Of a DNA stretch of 64,000 bases, positions 34,578-49,795 are shown one piece after another. Position 1 is the stretch's first letter; every line of letters begins with the position of its first letter. Under the pieces are notes generated by a model. That model was not told where the DNA came from and did no database searches. It saw nothing but the letters and a program-made list of their open reading frames with translations. The DNA is taken from assembly GCF_006539565.1 (NCBI RefSeq), contig NZ_BJNG01000005.1:124001-188000 (forward strand). The letters are read 5' to 3'. Made by a program: the position numbers and the translations under genes. The DNA is from Pseudonocardia hydrocarbonoxydans. Lineage in GTDB: Bacteria; Actinomycetota; Actinomycetes; Mycobacteriales; Pseudonocardiaceae.

Positions 34578-34600
34578 CCGTTGTCCGGTCGGGACAACGG
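34578..34600. promoter_or_regulatory. Perfect dyad operator upstream of stand-alone BMC-H
   Basis: CCGTTGTCC-N5-GGACAACGG, 59 bases before the BMC-H ATG. The core TTGTCC-N5-GGACAA recurs at 49777-49793 and as single good halves at 42493-42519. Best candidate binding site of the nearby GAF/PucR regulator. Confidence 0.7.
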
Positions 34601-34659
34601 CACCGGCGCGTCCCCGGCCTACCGTGGACCCGCGGGCCCGTGCCCGGCGAGGGAGCGTG

Positions 34660-34959
34660 ATGGCGATGGCGAGCGGTGCACTGGGCATGGTCGAGACCCG
34701 GGGGCTGGTCGGCGCCCTGGAGGCGGCCGACGCGATGGTGAAGTCGGCGAACGTCGAGGTGGAGGGCTACCGCACGCTGCGCAACGGCCAGGTCTCGATC
34801 CTGGTCCGGGGCGACGTCGGCGCCGTCCGGGCCGCCGTCGACGCCGGGTCCGCCGCCGCGGCCGCCGTCGGCGAGCTCTACGTCGCCCGCGTCCTGCCCC
34901 GCCCGGACCCGGGCACCGAGACGGTGATCGGCGAGGCCGTCACGGCGACGCGGACCTGA
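34660..34959 (+). CDS. BMC-H shell protein with unusual pore loop (stand-alone)
   Basis: A 99-residue single BMC-domain protein ([20 protein letters not shown], then [15 protein letters not shown]), expected to form hexagonal shell tiles. The pore segment reads YRTLRNGQVS where PduA has YEKIGSGLVT. The pore Gly-Ser is therefore Arg-Asn, predicting a basic, polar pore. It is transcribed toward the main BMC operon from its own promoter with a perfect dyad, and its last 20 bases overlap the regulator gene. ATG at 34660 with GAGGGAG upstream. Confidence 0.93.
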   Translation: MAMASGALGMVETRGLVGALEAADAMVKSANVEVEGYRTLRNGQVSILVRGDVGAVRAAVDAGSAAAAAVGELYVARVLPRPDPGTETVIGEAVTATRT

Positions 34960-37036
34960 CCACGGGGCCGGCCGCGTCCCCCTCGGCCTCGGGCTCCCCG
35001 GTGACCTGCAGCAGCCGCAGCGCGAAGTCGGCGCGCATCCGGTCCTCGTGCCGGCTCAGGTCGAGACCGGTGAGCTGTTTGATGCGTTCCAGGCGGTAGC
35101 GCAGCGTCTTGTGGTGGACGAACAGCCGCTCGGCGGCCACCCGCTGCGAGCAGTCGGCGTCGAAGAAGGCGCGCAGCGTCCGGATCAGGGACCCGTCGTT
35201 GTCGCGGTCGTAGGTCAGCAGCGGGCCGGTGACCTCCTCGACGAAGGTCATCAGGTCCGGGTCGTCGCCGGAACCCAGCAGCAGCCGCACGATGCCCAGC
35301 TCCTCGTAGAGGAACGCGTTCCCCCCGCCGAGCCGGTGCGCGGCCGACAGCGCGGTGCGCGCCTCGTTCAGCGCGCTGGGCAGCTCCACGACGTCGTCGT
35401 GCGGGCGGCTGATCCCCCAGGTCAGGCGCAGCCCGTCGCTGCCGTCGCGGACGGCCGCGCCCATCCGCACGGCCAGGTCCCGCACCTGCACCCGGTCGAC
35501 GTCGGACACCACCACGACGACGAAGTCGCCCCGCAGGCTGGCCAGCGACGTCGCGCGCCCCCCGTCGACGGCGCGGAGGGCGCGCACCGCGTCGCGGCGG
35601 ACGCGGTCGGTCTGCGAGGTGTCCCAGCCGAGGTCCGCGGCGAGCTCCTCCACGTTCTCCAGGCGGCCGTAGAGCACGCGCAGGGCGCCGCCGAGCGGGA
35701 CGTTGAGCTGCTGGGCGCGGGTGCGCGCGGCGATCCGGTGCTCGACCGGGCCCTGCAGCAGGTCCCACAGCACCTGCTCCAGCGCCTCGGACCGCGCGCG
35801 GCTCGCGGCACGCTCGCGCAGCAGGGCCAGCGAGCACGCCATGGCCACCTGGCCCGCGACCACGTCCATCATCTCCGCGGAGATGCCGTCCGGGCGCAGC
35901 AGGACCCAGCCGATGCGGTCGCCGTCGGCGTGCACCGGCTGGGTCCACACCGGGTGACCGCCCAGCGTGGTGCGCCCGGCGCGGGTGCCGGCGGGCACGC
36001 TCCCCGGCAGCTCGACGGTGAGGTCACGGCCGCCGTGGGAGGCCACCAGCGCGCCGCGGGTGTCGTAGATGCCGACCTGGCAGTGCAGCTCCCCGCCGAC
36101 CGTCCGCGCGATCGCCGGCAGCCCGCCCCCGTCGCGGACGGTCAGCAGCAGCGTCTGCTGCAGGCGCGACGAGCGGTCCAACACCGCGACCTGGCTGCGC
36201 AGCGCCTCCCCCGCCAGCTCCATCTCGCGGACGGCCGCGGCCTGCTCGTCGTGCAGCCGGGCGTTGTCGATCGCGACCGACGCGACGTCGGCGAAGGTGA
36301 CCATCCGCCGGACGTCGCGCTCGGTGAACAGCGACGGGCGCCGCCGCCACACCTCCAGCACCCCGACCAGGCGGCCGTGCAGGCGCAGCGGCACCGCCAG
36401 CGCGGACTGGGTCTGCTCCTGCACGGCCAGCGACACGAAGTCCTGGGTGATGGTGCGGTCGTCGAGGTAGTTGTCGACCTTCGCCGGCCGCCCGGTGAGG
36501 AACACCAGCCCGGCGACGCCCTGACCGCGGCGCATCCGCAGGCGCGCGGTCTCGACCACCCGGTTGCCGACGCACGAGCGCATCCGCACCTCGTCGTCCT
36601 CGCGCAGGAACACCCCGCAGATGTCGGCGTCGAGCAGCTTGGAGGTGCGGTCGGCGATGGAGAGCAGCACCTGGTCCAGGTCGCGCACCGACAGCAGCCG
36701 CTCGACGACGTCGCGCACCACCGCGGTCTCCGCGGCCTCGGCGACGGCGCCGTCGCGCGCGGCGTCGCGGGCGGCGGCGAGGGTGAGCCAGACCGTCGCC
36801 CGGCGCAGCAGGGCCCGGGTGGCGGCCGGCACCGGGACGGCCCACTGCAGCTCCCGCTCGTCGCCGGTGGCGCGCACGGTGACCGCCGCCCCGACCACGC
36901 GGGCCGCCAGCGCGACGAGCTCCACCTCGGCGGCGGCGGCGTCGGCCGGCACCCGGGCGAGGAGGTCCTCCAGCTCCGCGGCGGGGTCGTCGACGAGCCG
37001 CAGCGCCGCCCGACCCGCGCGTTCGGACGGCGTCAT
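34940..37036 (-). CDS. GAF-PucR family regulator of the BMC locus
   Basis: A 698-residue regulator. A GAF domain (about 105-260, with DADICGVFLREDDE and SALAVPLRLHGRLVGVLEVW), a coiled-coil linker, a second sensor-like stretch, a degenerate GGDEF-like domain (about 450-570) and a C-terminal PucR/CdaR helix-turn-helix (CSQRVAAERLFVHHKTLRYRLERI, about 625-650). This family usually activates catabolic operons in response to substrate. It is the last gene of the shell operon and overlaps the alcohol dehydrogenase stop. It is the obvious reader of the TTGTCC-N5-GGACAA dyads; inference. Confidence 0.88.
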   Translation of the reverse strand: MTPSERAGRAALRLVDDPAAELEDLLARVPADAAAAEVELVALAARVVGAAVTVRATGDERELQWAVPVPAATRALLRRATVWLTLAAARDAARDGAVAEAAETAVVRDVVERLLSVRDLDQVLLSIADRTSKLLDADICGVFLREDDEVRMRSCVGNRVVETARLRMRRGQGVAGLVFLTGRPAKVDNYLDDRTITQDFVSLAVQEQTQSALAVPLRLHGRLVGVLEVWRRRPSLFTERDVRRMVTFADVASVAIDNARLHDEQAAAVREMELAGEALRSQVAVLDRSSRLQQTLLLTVRDGGGLPAIARTVGGELHCQVGIYDTRGALVASHGGRDLTVELPGSVPAGTRAGRTTLGGHPVWTQPVHADGDRIGWVLLRPDGISAEMMDVVAGQVAMACSLALLRERAASRARSEALEQVLWDLLQGPVEHRIAARTRAQQLNVPLGGALRVLYGRLENVEELAADLGWDTSQTDRVRRDAVRALRAVDGGRATSLASLRGDFVVVVVSDVDRVQVRDLAVRMGAAVRDGSDGLRLTWGISRPHDDVVELPSALNEARTALSAAHRLGGGNAFLYEELGIVRLLLGSGDDPDLMTFVEEVTGPLLTYDRDNDGSLIRTLRAFFDADCSQRVAAERLFVHHKTLRYRLERIKQLTGLDLSRHEDRMRADFALRLLQVTGEPEAEGDAAGPVVRSASP

Positions 37037-38079
37037 CGCCCCTCCTGGACCGCGATCAGCGCCTTGAGGGTACGTCGCCCGGCCATGCGTGCATATGCCT
37101 GCGGGACGCCGTCGAGCGGCACGGTCTCCGAGGCCACGACCGCCGGATCGAGCGCCCCCGAGCGCACCAGCGCCAGCAGCGGCCCGGCGTCGCGGGCGAG
37201 GTCGCCGATCGCGAAGGCCAGCGTCAGCTCGTCGGCGAAGGCCCGGGCCACCGGCAGCTCCCAGCCCGGGTCGGTGTGCACCCCGACCGAGACGACGGTG
37301 CCGCGGCGGCGCACCAGCGCGCACGCGGCGTCCAGGCCGCGGCGGCCGCCGACCGCGTCGACGACGGCGTCGGCGCCGCGGCCGTCGGTGAGCCGGTCGA
37401 CGAGCGCGCGGGCGTCGTCCGGGGCGGCCACGACCGCGCCCTGGGCCGCGGCGAGCTCCCGGCGGTCCCCGACCGGTTCGACGAGCACGACGATCCCGGC
37501 GCCGCACGCCTGCGCGGCGAGCGCGGTGAGCTGCCCGACCGGGCCCCCGCCGACCACCGCGACGGTGTCGCCCGGCGCGATCCCGGCCCGGCGCACCGCG
37601 GCGTACCCGGTGGCCAGGGTGTCGCCCAGGAAGACCGCGGCGTCGACGTCCACCCCGGCGGGCACCGGCTGCAGGACGGTGTCGGCGTGCGGCACCCGGA
37701 CAAGCTCGGCCTGCGCGCCCGCCAGCGGCGGCCCGAACGCCGACCCGGTGCCGAAGAACCGCCGCTGAGCGCACTCCCAGTGGTCGCCGCGGCGACACCA
37801 CCAGCACCGGCCGCACGAGGTGAAGTCGGCCCCGACCACCAGGTCGCCGCGCCGGTGGCCGTGCACCCCCGCACCCGGCTCGACGACCTCCCCGACGAAC
37901 TCGTGCCCGAGCACGAACCCCTCCGGCAGCCCGTCCGGGTGCGCGACGACGTGCAGGTCCGTGCCGCACACCGCCGCGCGGCGCACCCGGACGACGGCGT
38001 CGGTGGGCTCCTCGATCCGGGGGTCGGGCACGGTGTCGACCTCCACCCGGCCCTGCCCCGCGTACACCACGGCCCTCAC
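37033..38079 (-). CDS. Zinc-dependent alcohol dehydrogenase in the BMC operon
   Basis: A 348-residue MDR-type dehydrogenase. Catalytic zinc ligands are in CGTDLHVV (about 39), GHEFVGEV (about 60) and the later conserved region. Structural zinc is held by CGRCWWCRRGDHWEC. The nucleotide site is VVGGGPVGQ. It would oxidise an alcohol or, inside a BMC, reduce aldehyde to regenerate NAD+ for the aldehyde dehydrogenase. Many BMCs use an iron-type enzyme for this; a zinc type is less common. GTG start overlaps the upstream stop. Confidence 0.9.
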   Translation of the reverse strand: MRAVVYAGQGRVEVDTVPDPRIEEPTDAVVRVRRAAVCGTDLHVVAHPDGLPEGFVLGHEFVGEVVEPGAGVHGHRRGDLVVGADFTSCGRCWWCRRGDHWECAQRRFFGTGSAFGPPLAGAQAELVRVPHADTVLQPVPAGVDVDAAVFLGDTLATGYAAVRRAGIAPGDTVAVVGGGPVGQLTALAAQACGAGIVVLVEPVGDRRELAAAQGAVVAAPDDARALVDRLTDGRGADAVVDAVGGRRGLDAACALVRRRGTVVSVGVHTDPGWELPVARAFADELTLAFAIGDLARDAGPLLALVRSGALDPAVVASETVPLDGVPQAYARMAGRRTLKALIAVQEGR

Positions 38080-38948
38080 GGCGGCGGGCGCCCGACGGTC
38101 TCCCGCACCCCGTCGCGGCCCAGCCGGACCTGCACGGCCCGGCCGTCCTGCGGGGCGGTGGCGGGCAGCACCTCCCCGGTGTCGCGGACCATCGCGAGCA
38201 CCATCGCCGCGGCGGCGCTGCCCGGCGCCACGCGCAGGCCGCGGGCCCCGGCCGTCCCGACGACCCGCCGGGCGGCGAACCCCGACGCCCGCCAGGTCGC
38301 CCCGAGGACCGCCGGGTCCCCGGTGACGACGACGAGCGCCGCGTCCGGCGAGGTCGCCGCGATCCGCGCGGCCACCTCCGGTCCGGCGCTCTCCGGGGCG
38401 GCGATCACGACGTGGTCCGCGGGGCCGGCGTCCTCGACCGTCGCGCACCCGCGCACGGCCGTCGCCGCCCCGGCCTGCGCGAGGTCCAGAGCGACCGCGC
38501 GCGCCCGGCCCTCGTCCGCGTCGACCAGGACGATCTCGCCGAACACCGCGGCGTCGGCGAGGCGCAGCGCGGCGACCATGCCGACCCCACCGGCCCCGAC
38601 GACCACGGCCCGCCGGACCGCGCCGGGGCGGACCGCCCGGGGCAGCGGGGCGCCCCGGCGGTACAGCGCGCCCGAGGGCGGGCGGACCGGGCGCGGGGCG
38701 GCGTCCGGGGCGCGGGCCGGTGGACGCGCGGGGCCGGGCGCGGGAGCGGGACGGGCGGGGGCGGGGGCGGGGCGCCGGTCCCCCACGACGGCCGCGGCCG
38801 CGCCCGGGGTGGCGACGACGATCTCCACGCCCCGCTCCCGCGCCCGCTCCCGCGCCAGCGGGGTGAGGAGGTCGCGCGGCCCGACGGCGAGGATCCCGGC
38901 CGCCGCGGCACCGTCGACGTCCTCGGCCCCGATCACGCGCGGGCTCAC
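38076..38948 (-). CDS. Truncated malate/lactate-dehydrogenase-like protein with BMC-type N-terminus
   Basis: A 290-residue protein. Residues 1-45 (RVIGAEDVDGAAAAGILAVG, DLLTPLARERARERGVEIVV) resemble the short TPLAR-type segment on several BMC-associated proteins. A Pro/Ala linker (about 55-105) follows. The Rossmann part has VVVGAGGVGMVAALRLADAA and SGFAARRVVGTAG, as in malate dehydrogenases. The catalytic His/Asp part (GEHGDS region) is missing, so it may bind NAD(H) without turning over malate. Possible roles are cofactor holder or core scaffold. Coupled by GTGA overlaps to BMC-T and the alcohol dehydrogenase. Confidence 0.7.
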   Translation of the reverse strand: MSPRVIGAEDVDGAAAAGILAVGPRDLLTPLARERARERGVEIVVATPGAAAAVVGDRRPAPAPARPAPAPGPARPPARAPDAAPRPVRPPSGALYRRGAPLPRAVRPGAVRRAVVVGAGGVGMVAALRLADAAVFGEIVLVDADEGRARAVALDLAQAGAATAVRGCATVEDAGPADHVVIAAPESAGPEVAARIAATSPDAALVVVTGDPAVLGATWRASGFAARRVVGTAGARGLRVAPGSAAAAMVLAMVRDTGEVLPATAPQDGRAVQVRLGRDGVRETVGRPPP

Positions 38949-39571
38949 CGGCGGTCCTCCCGCCCGTGCATCGCCTCCAGTGCCGCCACCGCCGCGTCCC
39001 GGGCCGTGACGACGTCGCTCTCGGTGCCGGAGAGGAACATGCGGCCGAACCGCCCGACGGCCCGCAGCTCGACCACGGTGATCTCCGCGGCCTTCTCCGC
39101 CTCGTTGGCCGCCACGGCGATGTAGGCCGCGGGGGCCACCTCCATGACCAGCAGGCTCTGGCCGGGCATCATCATCGAGCCCTTGCGCCACTTGTTGAGC
39201 AGCTGCGCCTGGTAGGGGTGCACGTTGGTGATGAACTGGACCGATGCGATCGTCGGCCGGATCCGGTCGGCCTCGGTGAGGCCGAGCTCGTCGAGCACGG
39301 CCTGCCCGGACGCCAGCACCTCCGCCTGCTGCTCGGAGTGGATCTCCAGCAGGCCGAACTCGCGCTCGATGATCTGCAGGGCCGGGCGGACGCCAGAGGC
39401 CTTGAGCGCGATGTCCGCGGCCCGGAACACCTCGTTGCCCGGCGCCATCTCGATGTAGAGCTCGGCCATCCCGGCGAGCGGCACGTCACCGGGGCTGGTG
39501 GCCGCGATGTGCGCGGCGCACTGCGGCTGCATGCGGTCGACGAAGGCGTAGGTGCGCAGGGTGGGGGTCAC
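38945..39571 (-). CDS. BMC-T trimeric shell protein
   Basis: A 208-residue protein of two BMC domains. The first has MAELYIEMAPGNEVFRAADIALKAS (about 30-55) and ends near 100. The second has QSLLVMEVAPAAYIAVAANEAEKAAEITVVEL (about 135-165) with FGRMFLSGTESDV as its pore-side loop. Trimers make pseudohexagonal tiles, often with gated pores for larger cofactors or substrates. Start is GTG 39571, overlapping the EutJ-like stop. Confidence 0.9.
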   Translation of the reverse strand: MTPTLRTYAFVDRMQPQCAAHIAATSPGDVPLAGMAELYIEMAPGNEVFRAADIALKASGVRPALQIIEREFGLLEIHSEQQAEVLASGQAVLDELGLTEADRIRPTIASVQFITNVHPYQAQLLNKWRKGSMMMPGQSLLVMEVAPAAYIAVAANEAEKAAEITVVELRAVGRFGRMFLSGTESDVVTARDAAVAALEAMHGREDRR

Positions 39572-40383
39572 GGGGCGCTCCGGGCGATCCCCAGCGGGGT
39601 GATCAGCAGGGCGTGCGGGTAGGTCACGACGGGGCGCTCCAGCCACGAGGCCAGCACGGAGTCCGCGCCGGGGATCATCAGGGCGCCCCCGGCGAGGTGC
39701 ACCGGGAGCCGTGGCACCTCGCGGGTCATCGCGCGTACCGACTCGGCGATCCGCTGCAGGCCCGGCACCAGGATCGGCAGGGCGTCGGCGGGGTGCTCCC
39801 GCTTGTGGGCCTCCGCCCCCTCCACGGTCAGGCCGAGCGCGCCGGCCAGCACCAGGTCGAGATGGTGGCCGCCGCCGGGACGGTCGTCGAGGGCGACGAG
39901 CACGCCGTCGCGGAAGACGCCGACACCGGTCGAGCCGCCCCCGACGTCGACGACCACCCCGTCGCGCACCTCCAGCGTGCGCTGCGCGGCGCTCACCTCG
40001 TCGACGAGGACGACGTCGGCGAACCCGGCGGTCTCGCACACGTGGACGCAGGCCCGGGCGTCCTGCACCGGGATGCACGGCGGGTACGCCGTCGCGGCGC
40101 GGGTCAGCGCGACCCCCAACGCCTCCTCGGCGCGGTCCCGCAGGTGCCGCACCGCGGCGGTGGCGCCCGCGAAGTCGACGACCACGCCGTCGCGCAGCGC
40201 ACCGCAGGGGTGGGAGTCCACCCACACCGGGGCGCCCGCGGCGTCGAGGACGACCAGCACGCAGGTGGCCGTGCCGAGGTCGACGCCGACACGCAGCGGC
40301 CCGACGGGCGGCGGCGGGACGGTCCCGGCACACGCCGCCGCGGCGGCGAGCCGGGCGCGGGGGTCGGTGGTGGTCACGGTCAT
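39568..40383 (-). CDS. EutJ-like actin-fold ATPase
   Basis: A 271-residue actin/Hsp70-fold protein with phosphate 1 loop GVDLGTATC (about 33-41), phosphate 2 loop VVDVGGGSTGVGVF (about 147) and adenosine loop LAGGALMIPG (about 230). EutJ family members accompany metabolosome operons and are thought to act as chaperones for cargo or reactivation. ATGA overlap with the aldehyde dehydrogenase. It has no substrate-binding lid domain like that of DnaK, in line with EutJ. Confidence 0.88.
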   Translation of the reverse strand: MTVTTTDPRARLAAAAACAGTVPPPPVGPLRVGVDLGTATCVLVVLDAAGAPVWVDSHPCGALRDGVVVDFAGATAAVRHLRDRAEEALGVALTRAATAYPPCIPVQDARACVHVCETAGFADVVLVDEVSAAQRTLEVRDGVVVDVGGGSTGVGVFRDGVLVALDDRPGGGHHLDLVLAGALGLTVEGAEAHKREHPADALPILVPGLQRIAESVRAMTREVPRLPVHLAGGALMIPGADSVLASWLERPVVTYPHALLITPLGIARSAP

Positions 40384-41759
40384 GCGATCTCCACCGGGTC
40401 GTACACGGTGCGCCACGGCCGCACCTCGTGCGCGATCCGCTTGATGTTGATCAGGTGCAGCGGGGTGACGTTGTCCGAGCAGATCGAGCCGCTCCAGGTT
40501 CCCGTGCCGAGCTGGAAGGACGGGTCGACCTCGCAGGAGAAGCCCATGCCGCCGAACAGCGCGGGGGTGTTGACCACGATCCGGCCCGCGGGCAGCGTGC
40601 CGAACGGGGCGATCTCCTCGGGGTCCGCGGCGTGCACCGCGCAGGTGTGGCCCTCGCCGTCGAGCGCGAGGACCTCGCGGCAGCGGGCCCAGCCCGCGGC
40701 GGCGTCGGGCACCCGGTACACCGACAGCACCGGCCCGAGGATCTCCCGCGACAGCGGCGCGTCGAGCCCGACGCGGTCGAGCCGCGCGGCCAGCACCCGG
40801 GTGCGGGTGGGCACGGTGAACCCGGACAGCTCCGCCAGCCGCACCGCGCTCTGCCCGACCGCGGCCGGGCGCAGCGCCCCCCGCTCGTCGAACAGGGTGC
40901 GGACCAGCGCGGCCTGCTGCGGCTCGTTCATCCAGTGCGCGCCGCGCTGCTCGAACGCGGCGAGGAACGCGTCGGCGACGGCCTCGACGACCACCACGGA
41001 CTGCTCGGCGACGCAGGCGGTGCCGTTGTCGAACGACTTCGAGGTGAGGATCATCTCGGCGGCCTCGGCCGGGTCGGCCACCGACGCCCCGACGTAGGCG
41101 GGCACGTTCCCGGCGCCGACGGCGATCGTCGGCTTGCCGCTGGAGTACGCGGCCCGCACCATCCCCGGCCCGCCGGTGGCGAGCACGAGTGCGATCTCCT
41201 CGCGGCGCATCAGCTCGTGGGTGGAGGCCAGGGTGGGGTCGGTGAGGCAGGAGATCAGCCCCTCCGGGGCGCCCGCGGCGACCGCGGCCGACGCCATGAT
41301 CTCCGCGGCCCGCAGCGTGCACCGCGCGGCCCGCGGGTGCGGGGCGAGCACGATCGCGTTGCCCGACTTCACCGCGGCCAGGCACTTGAACAACGCCGTC
41401 GACGTCGGGTTGGTCACCGGGATGATCCCGGCGATGACGCCCATCGGCGCGCCGACGGCGGTGACCCGCGCCTCCTCGTCCACCCACAGCACGCCCACCG
41501 CGCGGCGCTCCAGCATCCAGCGGGCCACGAAACCGGTGTTGTAGCGGTTCTTGTGGATCTTGTGCTCGTAGACGCCGTAGCCGGTCTCGTCGACGGCGAG
41601 CCGGGCCAGCTCCTCGGCCGCCCTCGTGCCGGCCACGGCCATGGCCCGCACGAAGCGGTCGAGGGTGTCCTGGTCGGCGCCCTCCAGCGCGAGGAACGCG
41701 CGCCGGGCCGCGCGGGCCTTCTCCCGGACGTCCGCGAGGCCCGCCAGGTCGGCGTCCAC
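40380..41759 (-). CDS. CoA-acylating aldehyde dehydrogenase (EutE/PduP type)
   Basis: A 459-residue aldehyde dehydrogenase. Catalytic Cys249 lies in FDNGTACVAEQSVVVVEA, the pattern of CoA-dependent BMC enzymes, with AGIIPVTNPTSTALFKCLAA for NAD binding. It converts aldehyde + CoA + NAD+ to acyl-CoA + NADH and is the core cargo enzyme. The N-terminal helix VREKARAARRAFLALEGADQ lacks a clear separate encapsulation peptide. The acyl chain is unknown. GTG start 3 bases after the BMC-H stop. Confidence 0.92.
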   Translation of the reverse strand: MDADLAGLADVREKARAARRAFLALEGADQDTLDRFVRAMAVAGTRAAEELARLAVDETGYGVYEHKIHKNRYNTGFVARWMLERRAVGVLWVDEEARVTAVGAPMGVIAGIIPVTNPTSTALFKCLAAVKSGNAIVLAPHPRAARCTLRAAEIMASAAVAAGAPEGLISCLTDPTLASTHELMRREEIALVLATGGPGMVRAAYSSGKPTIAVGAGNVPAYVGASVADPAEAAEMILTSKSFDNGTACVAEQSVVVVEAVADAFLAAFEQRGAHWMNEPQQAALVRTLFDERGALRPAAVGQSAVRLAELSGFTVPTRTRVLAARLDRVGLDAPLSREILGPVLSVYRVPDAAAGWARCREVLALDGEGHTCAVHAADPEEIAPFGTLPAGRIVVNTPALFGGMGFSCEVDPSFQLGTGTWSGSICSDNVTPLHLINIKRIAHEVRPWRTVYDPVEIA

Positions 41760-41762
41760 GGA

Positions 41763-42492: not shown

Positions 42493-42519
42493 GGACAACG
42501 TCCACCGCCCTCGTTGTCC
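42493..42519. promoter_or_regulatory. Divergent BMC control region with two operator halves
   Basis: GGACAACG (42493-42500) and CGTTGTCC (42512-42519) face outward, 11 bases apart, between the leftward shell operon and the rightward lipocalin/HAD pair. The left half is paired at N5 with a degenerate CTATCC (42482-42487). Confidence 0.6.
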
Positions 42520-42589: not shown

Positions 42590-43591
42590 GTGATCCGTCC
42601 CGAGGACGCCCAGTTCCACCCGCCGACCAGCGACGACCCGCTGTGGGCCGAGACCAACTACTTCGGCCTCTACGCCGCGCAGGACACCGACGCGCCGATC
42701 AACATCGGGGTCTACGGCTTGTTCCGCGAGCCGCTGGGCGTGGTCGGGTCGACGGTGTCGGTGAACCGCAGGCGCGTCACGATGCCGTGGGCCGCGGACT
42801 ACTGGGACGCCTGGGAGCACCTGGTCGTGCCGCAGCCGTCGAACCTGCTCGACTACGAGCTGGCCAACGGCCTGAAGGTCACGTGCTCCGAGCCGAACGC
42901 GGTGTGGGACGTCTCCTACACCGACGCCGCCGCCGGCCTGGACCTGCGCTTCCGCTACACCGCGCTGATGGAGGCCTACGACATCAACGACCCCGCACAG
43001 GACCCGATGGCCGCCGACCGGGACATGGCGAAGACCTGGGGCCACGCCTACGCCGGGCACTTCGACCAGACCGGGCACTTCGAGGGCGAGCTGAGGCTGC
43101 GCGGCGAGACGGTCCCGATCGACTGCGTGTCGACCATGGACCACAGCTGGGGCGTGCGCGCCGAGCGTCAGACCTCCCGGCTGTCCTGGCTGCACGCCCA
43201 TTTCGACCGCGACCTGGCGATCCACGTCATCTCCGACTTCTCCACCGACGCCGGCCCCGACGCGCCCTCCCCGCTGACCATGACCCACGGCTACGTCCTC
43301 GACGGCGGCAAGGTCTACGGGCTCAAGGCGGGCGGCGGCACGTCGGAGCGCACCGGGTTCTACGGCGAGCGGGTGACGCTGTCGGTCACCGACTCGGCGG
43401 ACCGCACCTGGGAGCTGGAGGGCACCGGGCTGACGACGTTCCCGTGGCAGGCCTGGCCGGGCACCGTCGGGCACAACGTGCTGCACCGCTGGACCCTCAC
43501 CTCGGAGTCCGGGGCCGGGCGCACCGGCTACGGGGAGTGCATGGACTTCATCGGGCTCGGCGAGCTCTCCGCCGTCTACAACAGGGCCTGA
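42590..43591 (+). CDS. Lipocalin-like (AttH/hydroxyneurosporene-hydratase-fold) protein
   Basis: A 333-residue cytosolic protein with a beta-rich, two-domain pattern. Segments such as [41 protein letters not shown] and [18 protein letters not shown] match the AttH/CrtC-like group (DUF7064/7065 type) that includes carotenoid hydratases and many uncharacterised catabolic proteins. The conserved DHSWG is a candidate catalytic segment. GTG 42590 has AGGAGG 6 bases upstream. It shares the operator region with the shell operon. A role in binding or hydrating the substrate is inference. Confidence 0.65.
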
Positions 43592-43592
43592 C

Positions 43593-44573
43593 GTGGGAAC
43601 GGCGCCGGTCCGGGCCGTCGTCTTCGACCTCGACGGCACGCTGGTGCAGACGCGCGTCGCCTCCTGGGAGGTGTTCTCGCAGATCAACGACCGGTTCGCG
43701 CTCGGCGTCGACAGCCCGGAACGCTACTTCGAGCTGTTCCGCACCAACGTGTTCGCCTCGATCCGGTCGCTGTGCCGCGACGAGGCCCACGCCGACGAGG
43801 TGAAGGCCGCGTTCCTGGCACTGCTGCGCACCGACTACACCCCGGCGATGATCCCCGGGATGACCGACGTCGTGCGACGCCTCGCGGGCGACTGCACCCT
43901 CGCGGTCATGTCGTCCAACGCGATGCAGGTGCTGCGCCGGGTGCTGGTGACCAACGACCTGGCGTTCTGTTTCGCCCACGTGTTCGGCGGCGACGTGGCG
44001 CCGGACAAGCGCGCCGCCATCCGGGCGTTCCTGGCCGACTCCGGCAGCGGGTTCGGCCGCCGCTGCGCCGCCGACTACGACGAGGCCGGGCAGCACCCCG
44101 CGCCCGACCCGGCCGGGACGGTGCTGGTCACCGACACCGCGGGCGACGTCCGCGACGCCCGGGAGACCGGGATCCGCGTCGTCGGGGTGGCGTGGGGGAT
44201 GCACTCGGTGGAGGAGCTGACCGAGGCGGGCGCGGAGTTCGTGGCCCTGTGGCCGCAGGAGATCACCGCGTACCTGCTGGGCGACGCGGCCGCGCAGCCC
44301 CCCGGCGGGGCCTGCGCCGTGCCGCCCCGCCCGGCCGGGGACGCCTGCGGGTGCGGGTGCTCGTCCGCGCCGGGGCAGGACCCCGTCCGGGAGGCCGCCG
44401 CGGCCCGGCGCCGCCGCCGCACCGCCGCCCGTGCCCACGTCCTCGCCGCCCTGACCCCGGCATCCCCGCCCCCGCCCCCGAATGGCAGCAACGTGGCTGT
44501 ACTGCCATTCGACACCCGCCGGCCGGCGGCACCGCCCGAGCTGCTCGCCGCCGTACGGGCCGTGTGCCGCTGA
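43593..44573 (+). CDS. HAD-family phosphatase with long C-terminal tail
   Basis: A 326-residue HAD hydrolase. Motif I VVFDLDGTLV (10-19), motif II VMSSNA, motif III lysine in APDKR and motif IV LVTDTAGDVRDA, all in a phosphoglycolate-phosphatase-like body to about residue 230. A further 95-residue tail has CGCGCSS and an Arg-rich helix (REAAAARRRRRTAARAHVLAAL). The tail may be a cargo-targeting segment or result of repeat insertion, as the palindrome at 44480-44513 codes for part of it. It starts 1 base after the previous stop. A phosphatase beside a dikinase suggests a phosphorylated pathway intermediate. Confidence 0.82.
   Translation: MGTAPVRAVVFDLDGTLVQTRVASWEVFSQINDRFALGVDSPERYFELFRTNVFASIRSLCRDEAHADEVKAAFLALLRTDYTPAMIPGMTDVVRRLAGDCTLAVMSSNAMQVLRRVLVTNDLAFCFAHVFGGDVAPDKRAAIRAFLADSGSGFGRRCAADYDEAGQHPAPDPAGTVLVTDTAGDVRDARETGIRVVGVAWGMHSVEELTEAGAEFVALWPQEITAYLLGDAAAQPPGGACAVPPRPAGDACGCGCSSAPGQDPVREAAAARRRRRTAARAHVLAALTPASPPPPPNGSNVAVLPFDTRRPAAPPELLAAVRAVCR
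44480..44513. repeat. Palindromic repeat inside the HAD gene 3' end
   Basis: GAATGGCAG and CTGCCATTC form 9-base arms around 13 bases, then CGAC. Base by base it matches an idealised form of the element at 61081-61140 (GCAGCAA, GTGGC, TTCGAC in the same spacing). A dispersed repeat family is likely. Confidence 0.6.
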
Positions 44574-44674: not shown

Positions 44675-47131
44675 CTACCCGAGCGCCGCCTTGCCCAGGG
44701 ACAGCAGCAGCGGGCGGGTCTCGTGGGCGTCGACGGCGAACCGGCGCACCCCGAGCCCGTGCAGCAGCGCGGCGGCCTCCTCGGACACCGCACCCGACAG
44801 GCGCAGCCCGACGCGACACCCCGGCACCTCGGCGGCCGTCGCGGCCACCCGGGCCAGCAGCCCCCGCACCGAGTCGTCGACGGTCGTGCGGGGGTCGGTG
44901 CCCAGCAGGCCGTCGCGGACGTAGGTGTCGAGCGGTTCGGCGGTGAGCAGGTGCCGGGCGGGGATGCCGAACACCGCGGCCTGCAGCGCCCGCACCTCCA
45001 GCCACAGGACCTCGGTGGTGGCCGCGAGCGCCGCGGCGTGGAAGACCCCGCGCGGGCTGGTGAGGTAGCAGCCGGTCGGCGGCCGGCCGTCGACGCCGGC
45101 GAGCTCCCGCAGCGCGTGCGCCTCCGCCGGGTCGCTGACGTGGCGCACCGCGAGGTGGACGCGCGCGGCGGCTCCGCTGTCGCGCACGGCGCGGCCGAGC
45201 CCGTCGAGCTGGGCCTCGACGAGCGCGGGCAGCCCGAGCGGCACCGACAGCTCGGGGTAGCGGCCGGTCAGCGCGGTCTGCTGCAGCAGCTCGCGGGACT
45301 CGTCGGCGAGGAAGTCGATCGCGCGGACGCCGACCTCCACCTCCCCCGCCGCGGCCAGCAACGGGGTGAACTCGGCGGCCACGAGGTCGGCGACGCGGGC
45401 GAACCGGGCGGTGCGCCGGTCCGCGAGCAGCGCCTCGACCAGCCCGTCGAGGTGCCCGGTCGCGGCCAGCACGTCGTCGACGGCGGTGACCAGCCCGGTG
45501 GCGCCCGCGGCCAGCGCCGGGGCGACGTCGCCGGGCAGCGTCACGCGGCTGAGCACCTCGCAGCCCGCGGCCGCCGCGGCGACGCCGAGCAGGCCCGACA
45601 GCGCGCCGGTCGCCGCGGCCGGGGTGGCCGTGACGAAGGTGCCGGCGAACAGCTCGCCGGTGGCGCCGTCGAGCGCCACGGGGTCGCCCTCGACCAGCGC
45701 CCGCCCGTCGACGGTCACCGTGCGCGCGGCCAGGTCCACCGTCATCGCCGACGCGCCCACGACGCACGCGGTGCCCAGCGCCCGCGCGACGACCGCGGCG
45801 TGGCTGGTGGACCCGCCGGTGACGGTGACGATCCCGCGCGCGGCGATCATGCCGTGCAGGTCGGCCGGGCTGGTGACGGGCCGGGCCAGCACCACTGGCG
45901 TCCCGGCGTCGGCGAGGGCCTTCGCGCGGTCGGGGTCGAGCACCAGCGCGCCGCTGACCTGGCCGGGACAGGCCCCGATGCCCGTGGTCAGCAGCCGCCC
46001 GCCCGCGCGGGCCGCGTCGACGTCGGCCGCGTCGAAGCCGGGGCGCTGCACCTGGCGCACCTGTTCGGCGGACACGCGGCGCACCGCCGCGGCGGGCGGC
46101 ACCGCGCCCTCGGCGAGCAGGTCCGCGGCGATCCGCACCGCGGCCTCCGGGGTCCGTTTGGCGCTGCGCACCTGCAGCAGCCACAGCACCGAGCGCTCGA
46201 CGGTGAACTCGATGTCGAGCACGTCGCCGTGGCGGCGTTCCAGGTCGGCACAGGTCGCGTGCAGCTCGGCGAGCACGTCGGGGGCCAGCGCGGTGGTGAC
46301 GGGGTCGGGGGTGCGGGTCCCGGACACGACGTCCTCGCCCTGGCTGTGCGCGAGGTACTCGCCGAACAGGCCGGGCTCCCCGGTCACCGGGTTGCGGGTG
46401 AACACCACCCCGGAGCCGGAGTCGGCGGACAGGTTGCCGAACACCATCGCCTGCACCACCACGGCGGTGCCGAGGTCGTGCGGGATGGCGTGGTGCTCGC
46501 GGTAGGTGCGGGCGCGGCGGGTGTTCCAGGACCGCAGCACGGCCTCCACCGCGCCGACGAGCTGGGCGTGCGGGTCGTCCGGGACGCTCTCGCCGCAGTC
46601 GTCGTCGAGCGCCTTCTCGCACGCCGCCCAGACCCGGTCGTAGGCCTCGCCGGGATCCGCGGGCAGCGGGTCGACGGCCTCGGCGGACGGGTCGAGCGCC
46701 CCCAGCACCGTCTCGGCGTACATCGTGTGGAAGCGGGCCACGAGATCGGCCATGAAGGCGACGTCGCCGGTGGCGGTGGCCAGCGCGACCGCCGCGTCGC
46801 GGCCCAGCCCCAGGTCCAGGACGGTGTCCATCATCCCGGGCATCGAGACCGGCGCGCCGGAGCGCACCGACACCAGCAGCGGCTCCGGGCCCGCCCCGAA
46901 CGTCCGCCCGGTCCGCTGCTCCAGCTCGGCGAGCCGGGCGAGCACCTCCTCCACCAGGCCGTCGGGCATCGCGCCCGCGGCGAGGTAGCGGCGGCAGGCG
47001 TCGGTGGAGACGACGAAACCCGGCGGCACCCGCAACCCGTCCTGCGTCATCCGGGCCAGGCCCGCGCCCTTGCCGCCGAGCCGGTCGACGTCGGCGGGGT
47101 CGGCGTCGGCGAAGGTCGACGTGAAGCTCAT
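44675..47131 (-). CDS. Pyruvate-phosphate-dikinase-like enzyme without canonical PEP site
   Basis: An 818-residue protein. The ATP-grasp part shows VSVRSGAPVSMPGMMDTVLDLGL and GVVFTRNPVTGEPGLFGEYL, diagnostic of pyruvate phosphate dikinase. The carrier histidine is His444 in GGSTSHAAVVARALGTACVVGA. The C-terminal barrel is short and degenerate: the GTNDLTQ and CGEHGGD segments with the catalytic cysteine are absent (CRVGLRLSGAVSEE stands in that region). It could charge a histidine from ATP but should not make PEP. The acceptor is probably the separate swivel protein or another substrate. ATGA overlap with the upstream gene. Confidence 0.85.
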   Translation of the reverse strand: MSFTSTFADADPADVDRLGGKGAGLARMTQDGLRVPPGFVVSTDACRRYLAAGAMPDGLVEEVLARLAELEQRTGRTFGAGPEPLLVSVRSGAPVSMPGMMDTVLDLGLGRDAAVALATATGDVAFMADLVARFHTMYAETVLGALDPSAEAVDPLPADPGEAYDRVWAACEKALDDDCGESVPDDPHAQLVGAVEAVLRSWNTRRARTYREHHAIPHDLGTAVVVQAMVFGNLSADSGSGVVFTRNPVTGEPGLFGEYLAHSQGEDVVSGTRTPDPVTTALAPDVLAELHATCADLERRHGDVLDIEFTVERSVLWLLQVRSAKRTPEAAVRIAADLLAEGAVPPAAAVRRVSAEQVRQVQRPGFDAADVDAARAGGRLLTTGIGACPGQVSGALVLDPDRAKALADAGTPVVLARPVTSPADLHGMIAARGIVTVTGGSTSHAAVVARALGTACVVGASAMTVDLAARTVTVDGRALVEGDPVALDGATGELFAGTFVTATPAAATGALSGLLGVAAAAAGCEVLSRVTLPGDVAPALAAGATGLVTAVDDVLAATGHLDGLVEALLADRRTARFARVADLVAAEFTPLLAAAGEVEVGVRAIDFLADESRELLQQTALTGRYPELSVPLGLPALVEAQLDGLGRAVRDSGAAARVHLAVRHVSDPAEAHALRELAGVDGRPPTGCYLTSPRGVFHAAALAATTEVLWLEVRALQAAVFGIPARHLLTAEPLDTYVRDGLLGTDPRTTVDDSVRGLLARVAATAAEVPGCRVGLRLSGAVSEEAAALLHGLGVRRFAVDAHETRPLLLSLGKAALG

Positions 47132-47742
47132 TCGACGCGGGCCCGGCCGAGGGTGCGCAGCAGGTCCTCGTGGAACTCGAACCAGACGTTGTGCACCGAG
47201 TCCAGCGTGGGCGCGGAGACCAGCTCGTGGCGCCCGGCGTCGATGCCGTCCAGGGCGGCGGCGAAGCGGCGCGGGTAGGCGCCGAAGCGCGGGTCGTGCC
47301 CGGCCAGCGCGTCGAGCAGGGGGCCCAGGCGCTGCACCAGCTTGTCGAGGCGGGCGATGACCTTGCCGTCGTACTCGGCGTCGGAGTGGTCGTTGGTGAC
47401 CCGGCGCCCGCCCACGTCGATCTGCTGCCAGGACGACATCGTGGTGAGGAACTGCGCGTTGACGGTCTCGAAGCGGTCGACGAGCGGCGCGAGCCCGGCG
47501 TCCTCGCGCACCGCCGCGTAGTGGTGGGCCGCGGCGGCCGCGAGCGCGGGCTCGGCGTCGTCGGTCGGGAAGGCGGCACCGGCGGCCACGACTATCAGGC
47601 CCCGTTCCTCGAGCCGGGCCAGCACCGACTCCACGTCGGCCGTGCCCGTGTCGGCGGCGACCACCTCGGCGGCCACCATCTTCTTCAGTGCGACGACGTT
47701 GAGGACGTCGTAGTCGGTCTTGTCCAGGACCGGCGCGGTCAT
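47128..47742 (-). CDS. Unrecognised 204-residue protein in the dikinase operon
   Basis: I do not recognise a family. Residues 5-60 (YDVLNVVALKKMVAAEVVAA, ADVESVLARLEERGLIVV) look like a small winged-helix domain. Residues 85-200 are helical with MSSWQQIDVGGRRVTNDHSD and HNVWFEFHEDLLRTLGR. It may be a subunit or specificity factor of the phosphotransfer system since its stop overlaps the dikinase ATG. GGGAGGAAC precedes the ATG at 47742. No signal peptide. Confidence 0.75.
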   Translation of the reverse strand: MTAPVLDKTDYDVLNVVALKKMVAAEVVAADTGTADVESVLARLEERGLIVVAAGAAFPTDDAEPALAAAAAHHYAAVREDAGLAPLVDRFETVNAQFLTTMSSWQQIDVGGRRVTNDHSDAEYDGKVIARLDKLVQRLGPLLDALAGHDPRFGAYPRRFAAALDGIDAGRHELVSAPTLDSVHNVWFEFHEDLLRTLGRARVE

Positions 47743-47807: not shown

Positions 47808-49241
47808 TTACAGCCAGCGGCCCTTGGAGTTGCGCCGGTCGGCGTCCTCGGAGAAGGGCAGGTACCCCGCCCCCGAGAAGATCTTGCTGGGCACGGTCTC
47901 CTGGGCGAAGCCGCGCTTGGTGATGTCGTAGTAGTAGTTCGCGACCCGCTGGTCGATCTCCCACAGGTCGTAGTCGCGGCAGGCCTTCTCGTAGGTGCCG
48001 GCCAACCGCATGTGCGGGAGGATCATGTCCACGTAGTAGACGTACTGGCCGTTCCAGATCAGGTCGCGCCGGTTCATCCGGGCGGTCTTGGAGTAGAGCT
48101 TGAGCGTGGCGTTCTGCACCCGGCCCAGGTGGTCGCCCAGGTCGTCCACCTTGATCGGGTACACCTCGCCCATCGGGGTGTTCCACTTCTCCCGGGCGAA
48201 CACCGCGCCACCGGTGATGGCCTCGATGTAGTTCTTGGGCCGGGTGAAGGTGGTGGAGATGTCGTTGACCCGGATCTCGTTGAGCCCCATCTTCTCCGGG
48301 TCGATCGTCAGCGCGAGGGTGTAGCAGTGGGGCAGGTTCTCGTCGTCGCAGACGTCGCTCCAGTGGAACACCTCCTCGTTGACGAACAGGTCGCGCAGGA
48401 TCAGCAGCTGCCCGTCCGGGAGCTCGTAGGGGCCGGTGTCGCCCAGGCCGAGCCGGCAGTCGTAGTGGTCGAGGAAGCTCAGCAGCTCCGCGGCCACTTT
48501 GAACTGGGTGAACGCGGCGTGCTTCGGGCTGCCCGCCTCCAGCGGCTCGATCTGCGCGGTGATCTGGGACAGGAAGTCGGGTTCGTGGATCCGGCAGCGG
48601 TAGCGGTCCTGGGAGTTGAGGATGTAGCCGTCCTGGCGCTTGCCCCACAGGATGCGCTGCATGAACTTGAGGATCTCGTTGCTCTCGCCGATGTAGTCGT
48701 CGGGCCCGATGACCTCCAGTGCGAGCAGGCCGCAGCGCCCCATCCCGAACCCGACGGCGCCGATGCACCAGTCGTGCACCGCGTTGACCTTGGTGCCGAT
48801 CCCGCGCCGCGCGCTGGCCCCGATGTCCATGATCGCCTGCGCGCCGCCGGCCTCCTTGGTGGTCATGCGCAGGATCTCCGGCCACCGGTAGAACTCGTGC
48901 ATGAAGGCCAGGATCTCGTACTCCTGGCGCGGGATCATGCCGCTCACGCCCTCGGTGGCGCGCATGACGAGCACGTCCCAGATGTTCCAGGCCAGGTAGT
49001 TGTTGAGGTCGTTCAGCTCGGGGATGGTGAACTCGTCGCGGAGGACGTCCTCCTTCGACACCTTCTCCAGCACGCCGCTCTTGGCGCGTGCCTTCATCAT
49101 CTTGTCGCCCTTGATCCCGTCGGTGACGGGCTCCATGCCGTGGAAGTTGCCGACGTAGGTCAGGTCCTGGAAGCGGAGGCCGTCGTCGCCCTCCTCGTAC
49201 CGCTGCTTGTAGGTGGCGCGCTTGCCCTCGGTGGTCGTCAC
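47808..49241 (-). CDS. Unrecognised 477-residue protein of the dikinase operon
   Basis: A well-conserved-looking, Tyr/Trp/His-rich cytosolic protein, unlike any family I can name. It has helical segments (LNDLNNYLAWNIWDVLVMRA, YEILAFMHEFYRWPEIL), then GASARRGIGTKVNAVHDWCI, FGMGRCGLLALEVIGPDDYI, FHWSDVCDDENLPHC and TITKRGF-like C-terminal residues. It lies between the swivel protein and the other two subunits. By analogy with the large subunit of phenylphosphate synthase it could hold the acceptor substrate; this is inference. GTG 49241 with AAGGAGA 6 bases upstream. Confidence 0.8.
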   Translation of the reverse strand: MTTTEGKRATYKQRYEEGDDGLRFQDLTYVGNFHGMEPVTDGIKGDKMMKARAKSGVLEKVSKEDVLRDEFTIPELNDLNNYLAWNIWDVLVMRATEGVSGMIPRQEYEILAFMHEFYRWPEILRMTTKEAGGAQAIMDIGASARRGIGTKVNAVHDWCIGAVGFGMGRCGLLALEVIGPDDYIGESNEILKFMQRILWGKRQDGYILNSQDRYRCRIHEPDFLSQITAQIEPLEAGSPKHAAFTQFKVAAELLSFLDHYDCRLGLGDTGPYELPDGQLLILRDLFVNEEVFHWSDVCDDENLPHCYTLALTIDPEKMGLNEIRVNDISTTFTRPKNYIEAITGGAVFAREKWNTPMGEVYPIKVDDLGDHLGRVQNATLKLYSKTARMNRRDLIWNGQYVYYVDMILPHMRLAGTYEKACRDYDLWEIDQRVANYYYDITKRGFAQETVPSKIFSGAGYLPFSEDADRRNSKGRWL

Positions 49242-49252
49242 AGTCGTCTCCT

Positions 49253-49672
49253 TCAGTCGTCCGCGACCACGCGGCCGACCTCGTGGTCGGTGCAGTCGAG
49301 CCGGACCTTGCGGCCGTCGAGGGCCTTCGCGATCTCCTCGAAGTGCTCGTCGCCGGTCTGGCCGACGACGTAGCGCGAGTCGCTGTCGGTGAGGTACGCC
49401 GTCATCACGCAGGGCGTCTGGAACTCCCGCGACAGGATGCCGAGGTGCGACTCGGGCGCGCCGGACATCGTGATGACGCCGATCGCCCCCATGCTCAGTG
49501 CGGGCGCGAGGAAGGTGGTCGTGCCGCCGCGGACCAGCAGGATGTGTTCCTGGAGCTTGCCGGACTTGATCAGGTTGATCACGTCCGCGGGCGCGGACAG
49601 GTACTTGATCGTGCCGCTCGGTGATTTGGCGGTGTCGAAGACGTTGTAGCCCTCGGCCAGTACCTCGGCCAT
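49253..49672 (-). CDS. Stand-alone phosphohistidine swivel (PEP-utilising mobile) protein
   Basis: A 139-residue protein corresponding to just the mobile domain of PEP synthase/dikinases. ILLVRGGTTTFLAP leads into GVITMSGAPESHLGILSREFQTPCVM, with carrier candidate His76. It should shuttle a phosphoryl group between an ATP-grasp donor and an acceptor site. It is the first gene of the leftward dikinase operon, with AAGGAGGAA before the ATG and the dyad operator about 105 bases upstream. The usual TSHAA is ESHLG, so acceptor chemistry may differ. Confidence 0.85.
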   Translation of the reverse strand: MAEVLAEGYNVFDTAKSPSGTIKYLSAPADVINLIKSGKLQEHILLVRGGTTTFLAPALSMGAIGVITMSGAPESHLGILSREFQTPCVMTAYLTDSDSRYVVGQTGDEHFEEIAKALDGRKVRLDCTDHEVGRVVADD

Positions 49673-49776
49673 CCGTTCCTCCTTGAACTGCTCCGGTAGC
49701 TGCTTGGCTGCGCCTCACTGTGCCGCGCGTCACTGCGTGCACCGATGGGCCGAACGGATAGAAGTCGCCGGACGCC

Positions 49777-49795
49777 TTGTCTCGCCCGGACAACG
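49777..49795. promoter_or_regulatory. Dyad operator upstream of the dikinase operon
   Basis: TTGTCT-N5-GGACAACG, the same geometry as the perfect site at 34578-34600, one mismatch in the left half. It links the dikinase operon to the shell genes. Confidence 0.65.

Follow-up and report, generated by a model that had tools for sequence, protein, structure and literature searches.

Gene content and organization of the locus

A 64,000-nucleotide stretch of the genome of Pseudonocardia hydrocarbonoxydans (contig NZ_BJNG01000005.1, positions 124001-188000; hereafter the window) harbors a complete bacterial microcompartment (BMC) locus together with a four-gene operon encoding a dikinase-like system, framed by two perfect TTGTC-N7-GACAA palindromes at positions 34581 and 49777. 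The genome comprises 5.29 Mb. Genes were called, and the proteins of the window were scanned against Pfam and NCBIfam. A preliminary description of the window had proposed a BMC locus joined to a phosphohistidine dikinase system, and all of the components that it listed were located, including the shell genes, the aldehyde dehydrogenase, the EutJ-like ATPase, the alcohol dehydrogenase, the four-gene operon, the HAD phosphatase and the lipocalin-like protein. Two further members had been missed, namely a malate-dehydrogenase-like protein (38076-38936) and a PucR-type regulator (34940-37036). The features of the locus are as follows.

34581..34597, no strand: operator TTGTC-N7-GACAA 5' of BMC-H1, exact palindrome
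34657..34959, plus strand: BMC-H shell protein 1 (PF00936, E 7.9e-26)
34940..37036, minus strand: PucR/GAF-type regulator (HTH_30, GAF, GGDEF_2), with relatives in other clusters
37033..38070, minus strand: g44, Zn-dependent alcohol dehydrogenase (ADH_N, ADH_zinc_N)
38076..38936, minus strand: g45, lactate/malate-dehydrogenase-like protein (Ldh_1_N, E 1.6e-07, residues 110-180)
38945..39571, minus strand: tandem BMC-T shell protein, CcmP-like (PF00936; NF053796, 252.5 bits, below the cut-off of 340)
39568..40383, minus strand: g47, EutJ/MreB-like ATPase (MreB_Mbl; NF011660, 278 bits, above the cut-off of 182)
40380..41759, minus strand: aldehyde dehydrogenase of the CoA-acylating type (PF00171; TIGR02518, 469.5 bits, below the cut-off of 620)
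41763..42062, minus strand: BMC-H shell protein 2 (PF00936, E 2e-28)
42103..42396, minus strand: BMC-P shell protein (PF03319, E 5.9e-23)
42482..42498, no strand: degenerate operator in the divergent BMC-P/lyase promoter, 2 mismatches
42590..43591, plus strand: g51, lipocalin-fold protein (DUF7064/7065), proposed from its model to be a tertiary-alkyl-phosphate lyase or isomerase
43593..44573, plus strand: g52, HAD phosphatase (HAD_2, E 2.5e-10)
44675..47131, minus strand: g53, PPDK-like protein with ATP-grasp and phosphohistidine domains and a degenerate pyruvate/phosphoenolpyruvate barrel (PPDK_N, PEP-utilizers)
47128..47742, minus strand: g54, 204-residue subunit, no Pfam match
47808..49241, minus strand: g55, 477-residue subunit, proposed to bind the substrate, no PDB fold match
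49253..49672, minus strand: g56, free phosphohistidine swivel protein (PF00391, E 1.9e-07)
49777..49793, no strand: operator TTGTC-N7-GACAA 5' of the dikinase operon, exact palindrome

The BMC genes on the minus strand form a compact run from g50 to g43 with spacings of -4 to +40 bp, in which the PucR-type regulator comes last, and the other BMC-H gene, that of BMC-H1, lies on the plus strand beyond this regulator. The genes g51 and g52, separated by 1 bp, diverge from the BMC-P gene out of a common intergenic region, and the dikinase operon is ordered g56, g55, g54, g53, with spacings of -4, +65 and +11 bp within g53-g56. By analogy with known examples, the N-terminal extension of g45 is a possible encapsulation signal.

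Association of the dikinase operon with BMC genes

A scan for g55 in one genome per species, limited to close relatives (at least 68% identity), retrieved 55 loci. BMC genes lie within 10 kb of g55 in 35 of the 37 loci that have about 10 kb of flanking sequence on both sides and in 11 of the 18 with incomplete flanks (46/55 overall); the co-occurrence anticipated in the preliminary description was thus found among orthologues, whose operons are mostly accompanied by BMC genes. The swivel gene is present in all 37 loci with full flanks, g54 and the PPDK gene in 36, and g51 and the HAD gene in 32. In the 37th locus (L033), g54 and the PPDK gene are present farther away on the same contig (L143). 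Among the five loci lacking g51 and the HAD gene, the cluster passes the end of the stretch examined in four, and wider stretches (L133, L149) revealed both genes for two of these (L024 and L034); the fifth is L038. The hosts include Pseudonocardia, Amycolatopsis, Actinomycetospora, Nocardia, Gordonia, Bradyrhizobium, Acidimicrobiia and Eremiobacterota, so that the cluster spans Actinobacteria, Proteobacteria and Eremiobacterota.

Across 200 genomes of the family, the eight with a g55 orthologue (at least 77% identity) are the same eight that encode this BMC-T (at least 79%), with one of the eight g55 orthologues (G178) being interrupted. Six of the 200 genomes contain only distant g55 relatives (at most 40%), and none of these six encodes such a BMC-T at E 1e-20; in another genome (G036), a 54% BMC-T relative is present and g55 gave no match. 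Eleven genomes with an incomplete, BMC-less or doubtful locus were also checked: five encode BMC-T and BMC-P, neither was found in the Methylocella, Xanthobacter and Endobacter genomes, and the three remaining metagenome-assembled genomes gave no BMC-T or BMC-P match, although locus L044 of one of them has a BMC-H gene. Judged from these gene neighborhoods, the association of the dikinase operon with the BMC is not due to chance.

Two loci found in these searches are of separate interest. In Actinomycetospora cinnamomea (L054, 8100-10870; also L063 and L070), g55 is present in two pieces about 1.3 kb apart, with one internal stop. In G036, a BMC locus (L159, about 2277-16128) encodes relatives of BMC-T (54%), the aldehyde dehydrogenase (53%) and BMC-H (74%), as well as octopine-dehydrogenase-like and lactate-dehydrogenase-type proteins, and adjoins genes for a histidine ammonia-lyase-type aromatic amino acid lyase, urocanase, an amidohydrolase, an M20 peptidase and glutamine synthetase; it is possibly a BMC for histidine utilization.

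Shared operators

Exact TTGTC-N7-GACAA palindromes occur only three times in the genome, and two of these lie at the two ends of this locus. Relaxed matching gave no excess: six sites with at most two mismatches were found in the window against 7.3 expected, and 32 forward matches with at most one mismatch in the genome against 42 for a reversed control. The weight therefore rests on the exact sites and on conserved positions only. A copy with at most one mismatch is found in 25 of 60 related loci at one of three positions, namely less than 200 bp 5' of the swivel gene, in the gap between the BMC-P and DUF7064 genes, or 5' of BMC-H; eleven further copies lie elsewhere in the same 60 loci, and this position count was made without a shuffled control. 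The site in the BMC-P/g51 promoter has 0-1 mismatch in 12 related loci. The earlier suggestion that shared operators unite the BMC genes and the dikinase operon in one regulon is supported by these sites and is retained here.

On the plasmid of Methylibium PM1, a perfect operator copy (L078, 10697-10713) lies 5' of a gene annotated 'membrane protein', just before which there is a decayed BMC-P copy with two internal stops. It is possible that the former encodes a transporter of the regulon and that the latter is a remnant of a second BMC cluster.

A proposed PPDK-derived dikinase with three additional subunits

Residues 11-587 of g53 align with PPDK structures (403 bits), whereas the PPDK model TIGR01828 is matched at 547.6 bits, below its cut-off of 843, and the Pfam scan gave no PF02896 match. 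Residues were counted in 49 g53 homologues, g53 included, and in 54 g56 rows, all from our own gene calls, some of which are incomplete. Among the residues that we take to form the ATP site and the phosphorylated histidine, E279, R337 and H455, together with the neighbors of H455, are invariant (49/49), and K22 and R92 are present in 43 and 45 rows, respectively, with gaps in the others; R561, presumably of the pyruvate site, is retained in just 4 of the 49. Like PPDK, g53 therefore combines ATP-grasp and phosphohistidine domains with a preserved ATP site and histidine, but it differs in the loss of R561 in most rows and in the addition of the swivel, 477-residue and 204-residue subunits. With the ATP site and histidine kept and the pyruvate site lost, ATP-dependent phosphorylation of a hydroxyl group, which the preliminary description had placed at the entry to the pathway, gains support as an interpretation.

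In g56, the residues E74-S75-H76 are invariant in all 54 rows. The g55 protein is well conserved (mean column identity of 81% across 39 sequences), and its AlphaFold2 model (pLDDT 81) had no match among PDB folds at E <= 0.001; sequence searches of g55 against the PDB likewise gave nothing usable. For g54, a link is provided by Rhodococcus opacus B4, in which a single 793-residue protein comprises a swivel domain at one end, a g55-like stretch (36%) in between, a TrmB-like domain toward the other end and a g54-like terminus, the C-terminal quarter of g54 being 44% identical over 54 residues to the end of the fused protein (L077). The same R. opacus cluster encodes a 569-residue PPDK-like protein that also has no PF02896 match. 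Because this strain carries all three kinds of sequence fused, g56, g55 and g54 probably act together as one enzyme, fed by g53.

Around the fused gene, the R. opacus B4 plasmid (L077, 4428-18896) also encodes a ferredoxin, a P450, aldehyde and alcohol dehydrogenases, a tyrosine phosphatase and two more kinase-like proteins. Distant g55 relatives (23-40%; L079, L152, L064-L075) are in many cases accompanied by swivel proteins, some in tandem, and those of L079 and L152 lie with genes for PPDK-like proteins, acyl-CoA ligases, biotin carboxylases and tyrosine-phosphatase-like proteins. These relatives appear to constitute a wider phosphotransferase family. The idea that all of them act on terpenes was rejected, as a relative in R. 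pyridinivorans adjoins a pyruvate-carboxylase-type carboxyltransferase.

The lipocalin-fold protein resembles 25-phosphosteroid lyase in predicted fold

The AlphaFold2 model of g51 (pLDDT 92) was compared with PDB structures using Foldseek, and five chains of 25-phosphosteroid lyase (25-PSL) occupied ranks 1-5, with E-values of 1.7e-12 to 1.7e-11 and TM-scores of 0.62-0.65. The best of these (E 1.7e-12, TM 0.64) shares 18% identity with g51, and the next matches are kievitone hydratase (2.7e-8), followed by AttH and Diels-Alderases. During the anaerobic degradation of sterols, phosphorylation of a tertiary alcohol is followed by elimination of the phosphate (PMC7411048, PMC8449060, PMC11061730). 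The fold match is the lead that identifies the probable chemistry of the locus, namely that of a tertiary-alcohol kinase coupled to a phospho-lyase, and it would make g51, whose presence had been noted earlier, more than an accessory. Since the best match is 25-PSL, tertiary alcohols are the likely substrates; from the previously suggested range of C3-C6 alcohols, ketones and glycols, tertiary alcohols are retained, and generic glycols and ketones are not.

Neighboring genes in related clusters

Genes lying beside the dikinase operon in other genomes point to an alcohol that is converted to 3-methylcrotonyl-CoA. In Endobacter, a single strand encodes an alcohol dehydrogenase, an acyl-CoA ligase, an aldehyde dehydrogenase, the beta subunit of methylcrotonyl-CoA carboxylase (MCC), BioB, MCC alpha, a 150-residue protein and a CitE-like lyase, followed by ScoA, ScoB, g51, g52, g56, g55, g54, g53 and PucR. 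By score, its MCC beta subunit matches methylcrotonyl-CoA carboxylase best (762 bits), ahead of geranyl-CoA carboxylase (447) and of the top propionyl-CoA carboxylase that is not part of the MCC-like group (259); one PDB entry within that group bears the name propionyl-CoA carboxylase. The best PDB match of the CitE-like protein is a citrate-lyase-beta-like protein, and such a CitE-like protein acts in the leucine breakdown of mycobacteria. On Rhodococcus pRB98, BMC-H, MCC beta (1010 bits against AccD1), MCC alpha and a MaoC-family gene are adjacent, while in Nocardia the order is g51, HAD, BMC-H, MCC beta and MCC alpha, with the start of MCC beta overlapping the stop of BMC-H. An MCC-type beta subunit was sought in the 55 g55 loci, the plasmid loci and 40 wider stretches, and was found in these three clusters only (Endobacter L041, Rhodococcus L076/L081, Nocardia L133); weaker carboxylase matches were left uncounted, including one of 35% in L157 and biotin carboxylases of 44-52% in L142, L152, L079 and L080. 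The genome of P. hydrocarbonoxydans encodes MCC beta elsewhere (78%).

In Xanthobacter, Methylocella, Paraburkholderia and Endobacter, clusters that lack BMC genes encode an alcohol dehydrogenase, an aldehyde dehydrogenase and an acyl-CoA ligase, which together would equal the work of the two dehydrogenases of the BMC. In Paraburkholderia, no BMC-P was found in the plasmid record, which was the only one searched.

Tertiary-alcohol metabolism is also indicated by Rieske oxygenases. An Eremiobacterota cluster encodes one with 62% identity to a gene of Methylibium PM1 that we take to encode MdpJ, the tertiary-alcohol oxygenase, and only one regulator gene separates it from BMC-H. A scan for MdpJ gave matches in 16 of 24 genomes, and only the Eremiobacterota copy (62-63%) lies within a cluster; the other matches (30-47%, on other contigs or distant) were taken as ordinary Rieske relatives and rejected as cluster members. 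In PM1 itself, the plasmid BMC cluster includes g51, HAD and PPDK genes, a second set with relatives of g51 (50%), g55 (34%), g56 (34%) and g54 (32%) lies about 23 kb away, and the Rieske gene is located farther on, within the same 60-kb plasmid region as the BMC cluster and this second g51/g55/g56/g54/PPDK set. A tyrosine-phosphatase-type gene lies beside the gene for the reductase of the Rieske enzyme, a second PPDK (44-45%) is likewise encoded in this farther part, and the plasmid region additionally contains the acyl-CoA-mutase genes of the 2-hydroxyisobutyrate route.

Other neighbors were not assigned to the system. The cluster in the window is flanked by an isopentenyl-diphosphate isomerase-like gene (30448-30990), so named by us from inspection of its sequence, and by PanE-like and AtuA genes (49867-52508); AtuA and isopentenyl-diphosphate isomerase belong to isoprenoid metabolism. 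These three, together with a molybdopterin oxidoreductase gene (31159-33537), were excluded from the cluster because only PanE recurs among related loci, being found, when matches over more than one-quarter of the query were counted, in L056 besides the window. In P. dioxanivorans (L046, 1017-9201), a methylfolate cluster encoding MTHFR, a methionine-synthase-like protein, SAM synthetase, a formyltransferase, PfkB, FolD and a 500-residue protein without a Pfam match lies directly 5' of the dikinase operon, an arrangement seen in 3 of 60 loci overall.

Proposed pathway for tertiary-alcohol catabolism

Taking these lines of evidence together, we infer, as regards the reactions, the substrate and the contents of the shell alike, that the cluster probably serves the catabolism of a short tertiary alcohol by the dikinase, g51 and the BMC. 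Tertiary alcohols cannot be oxidized directly. In the proposed pathway, g53, g56, g55 and g54 would form a dikinase in which ATP phosphorylates a histidine and the phosphoryl group passes to the tertiary hydroxyl of a g55-bound substrate, pyruvate no longer being the acceptor, and the splitting of ATP to AMP would pay for the tertiary phosphoester. A tertiary phosphoester is close to ATP in energy, and the ATP-to-ADP kinase reaction has an equilibrium constant of 0.34 (PMC8449060), an unfavorable value that an ATP-to-AMP dikinase would be expected to overcome. The tertiary phosphate would then be ionized by g51 to give, with an allylic alcohol such as 2-methyl-3-buten-2-ol, an allylic cation, and addition of phosphate or water to its primary carbon would yield prenol, perhaps via prenyl phosphate, which g52 would cleave if needed; alternatively, simple elimination by g51 would produce an alkene. 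For the HAD protein g52, a role as a pyrophosphatase or in repair is also conceivable. Within the BMC, the alcohol dehydrogenase and the CoA-acylating aldehyde dehydrogenase would convert prenol via toxic prenal to 3-methylcrotonyl-CoA, which would exit to the methylcrotonyl-CoA carboxylase (leucine) route. The handling of an aldehyde in the BMC, already part of the preliminary description, is consistent with this scheme.

We hold the chemistry, namely phosphorylation of a tertiary alcohol followed by loss or migration of the phosphate, with fair confidence; 2-methyl-3-buten-2-ol, degraded via prenol and prenal, is our best guess for the substrate and is proposed less confidently. The chances are about even that the signature enzyme of this BMC is a cofactor-free, PPDK-derived four-subunit tertiary-alcohol dikinase acting with the lipocalin-fold enzyme to form prenol, or another alcohol or aldehyde, from 2-methyl-3-buten-2-ol. 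The breakdown of this compound in PM1 and other bacteria may start by isomerization to prenol, a step whose enzymes were described as uncharacterized as of 2016 (PMC4791888).

One of the closest known systems is the pair formed by the steroid kinase 25-HSK and 25-PSL, in which phosphorylation of a tertiary alcohol precedes loss of the phosphate, as proposed here. However, 25-HSK converts ATP to ADP and is described as little similar to known phosphotransferases (PMC8449060), whereas the present system would consist of a PPDK-like multi-subunit dikinase with a small substrate and a BMC.

Phenylphosphate synthase of anaerobic phenol degradation, to which the system was likened earlier, uses split PEP-synthase-like subunits to phosphorylate a hydroxyl group, as would the present system; the proposed substrate and the follow-on lyase differ, and with the g51 match phenylphosphate synthase ceases to be the nearest functional analogue. 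The MdpJ pathway of Aquincola L108 and Methylibium PM1 likewise handles tertiary alcohols, and PM1 has both the BMC cluster and the second dikinase/lyase set near the Rieske oxygenase. It differs in that the known route leads to 2-hydroxyisobutyrate; the step forming prenol was described as uncharacterized (PMC4791888).

Several observations weigh against this pathway. MCC genes occur in just three clusters, to which that of the window does not belong, and an MdpJ-type gene is present in one cluster plus the PM1 region and absent from the window's own cluster. The PM1 BMC cluster has no more than a g55 fragment (residues 12-108, 56%) and a faint trace of g56, and the second PM1 set is a relative of only 32-50% identity. 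The link to the lyase is at the level of fold, as the g51 family profile and a PM1 relative gave no 25-PSL match when searched against PDB sequences, and hydratases and cyclases also use this fold. Moreover, plain elimination from 2-methyl-3-buten-2-ol would yield isoprene rather than prenol. The wider family extends beyond isoprenoids, given that a pyruvate-carboxylase-type carboxyltransferase accompanies one distant g55 relative, and the tertiary-alcohol kinase known so far belongs to another kind of enzyme and converts ATP to ADP (PMC8449060). The case as a whole is built from sequences and structure models.

Alternative interpretations

The same kinase and lyase evidence would apply to an ATP-driven diol dehydratase whose substrate is a 1,2-diol bearing a single tertiary hydroxyl, for instance 2-methylpropane-1,2-diol, which MdpJ forms from tert-butanol. 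Phosphorylation of that hydroxyl and loss of the phosphate would give an enol and hence isobutyraldehyde, which would be converted to isobutyryl-CoA in a propanediol-type BMC that needs neither B12 nor a glycyl radical. An aldehyde made by a dehydratase is classic BMC logic, and the MdpJ-type gene beside the Eremiobacterota cluster, as well as that in the PM1 plasmid region with acyl-CoA-mutase genes of the 2-hydroxyisobutyrate route, would fit such a substrate. This interpretation nevertheless appears unlikely, since the methylcrotonyl-CoA carboxylase of three clusters would not be needed and the alcohol dehydrogenase in the four BMC-less clusters examined suggests that the product is an alcohol rather than an aldehyde.

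Equally improbable, in our estimate, is a dehydratase that forms only an alkene such as isoprene or isobutene, with a separate oxygenase or hydratase continuing the pathway and the BMC taking up a later aldehyde. Alkenes were reportedly found in 2011 to be formed from tertiary alcohols by Methylibium spp., 25-PSL is described as alkene-forming (PMC11061730, PMC8449060), and conversion of tert-butanol to isobutene by such a route has been suggested (PMC7411048). However, no alkene oxygenase is present among the identified recurring families of the clusters, those found in few loci being only partly identified, and the conserved phosphatase beside g51 would be superfluous for plain elimination.

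Least probable is a dikinase that phosphorylates something other than a tertiary alcohol, be it the enol of a ketone, a primary alcohol or an aromatic hydroxyl, with g51 as an unrelated hydratase or cyclase: PPDK acts on an enol, phenylphosphate synthase acts on phenol, and hydratases and Diels-Alderases share the g51 fold, but the E-value of 25-PSL is some four orders of magnitude better than that of the next fold match, and tertiary-alcohol and isoprenoid-type neighbors are found in several phyla.

Relation to the MIC1 microcompartment and implications

The preliminary description knew of no BMC type with this content; one that fits, however, had been catalogued as MIC1 by Axen et al. in 2014 (PMC4207490), with an aldehyde dehydrogenase, a lactate/malate-dehydrogenase-type protein, a zinc dehydrogenase, an MreB-like protein, a phosphatase and a hydrolase, and with neither PTAC nor a signature enzyme in that catalogue. 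Correspondingly, the present locus combines shell genes and an aldehyde dehydrogenase with no PTAC family among the Pfam matches of g42-g56, a lactate/malate-dehydrogenase-type protein (g45) and a zinc-binding dehydrogenase (g44), and an MreB-like protein (g47) and a phosphatase/hydrolase (g52). Because the gene content as described fits, the BMC type has probably been recorded already as MIC1. The text on MIC1 names no signature enzyme, whereas here that function would fall to the adjoining dikinase operon and lyase. None of the words 'kinase', 'EutJ' and 'Methylibium' appears in the main text of a 2021 BMC catalogue. On the basis of a literature search covering open-licence papers only, we judge the tertiary-alcohol dikinase with its lyase, and their link to a BMC, to be the new part.

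Collectively, these analyses suggest which class of substrate, and which signature enzyme, may belong to a BMC type that was catalogued in 2014 with no such enzyme. They also provide candidate genes by which bacteria could turn 2-methyl-3-buten-2-ol into prenol, as well as enzymes that might be used for prenol or isoprene production. They are relevant to what becomes of a conifer volatile and of fuel oxygenates, among them methyl tert-butyl ether (MTBE) and tert-amyl compounds. If the proposed pathway is correct, tertiary alcohols would be opened by ATP-to-AMP phosphorylation, which would explain the use of a dikinase where the kinase equilibrium would be unfavorable, and phosphorylation would replace B12-dependent or radical dehydratases in a BMC. 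The system would then supply both a missing enzyme in the breakdown of hemiterpenes and fuel oxygenates and the missing function of MIC1 organelles.

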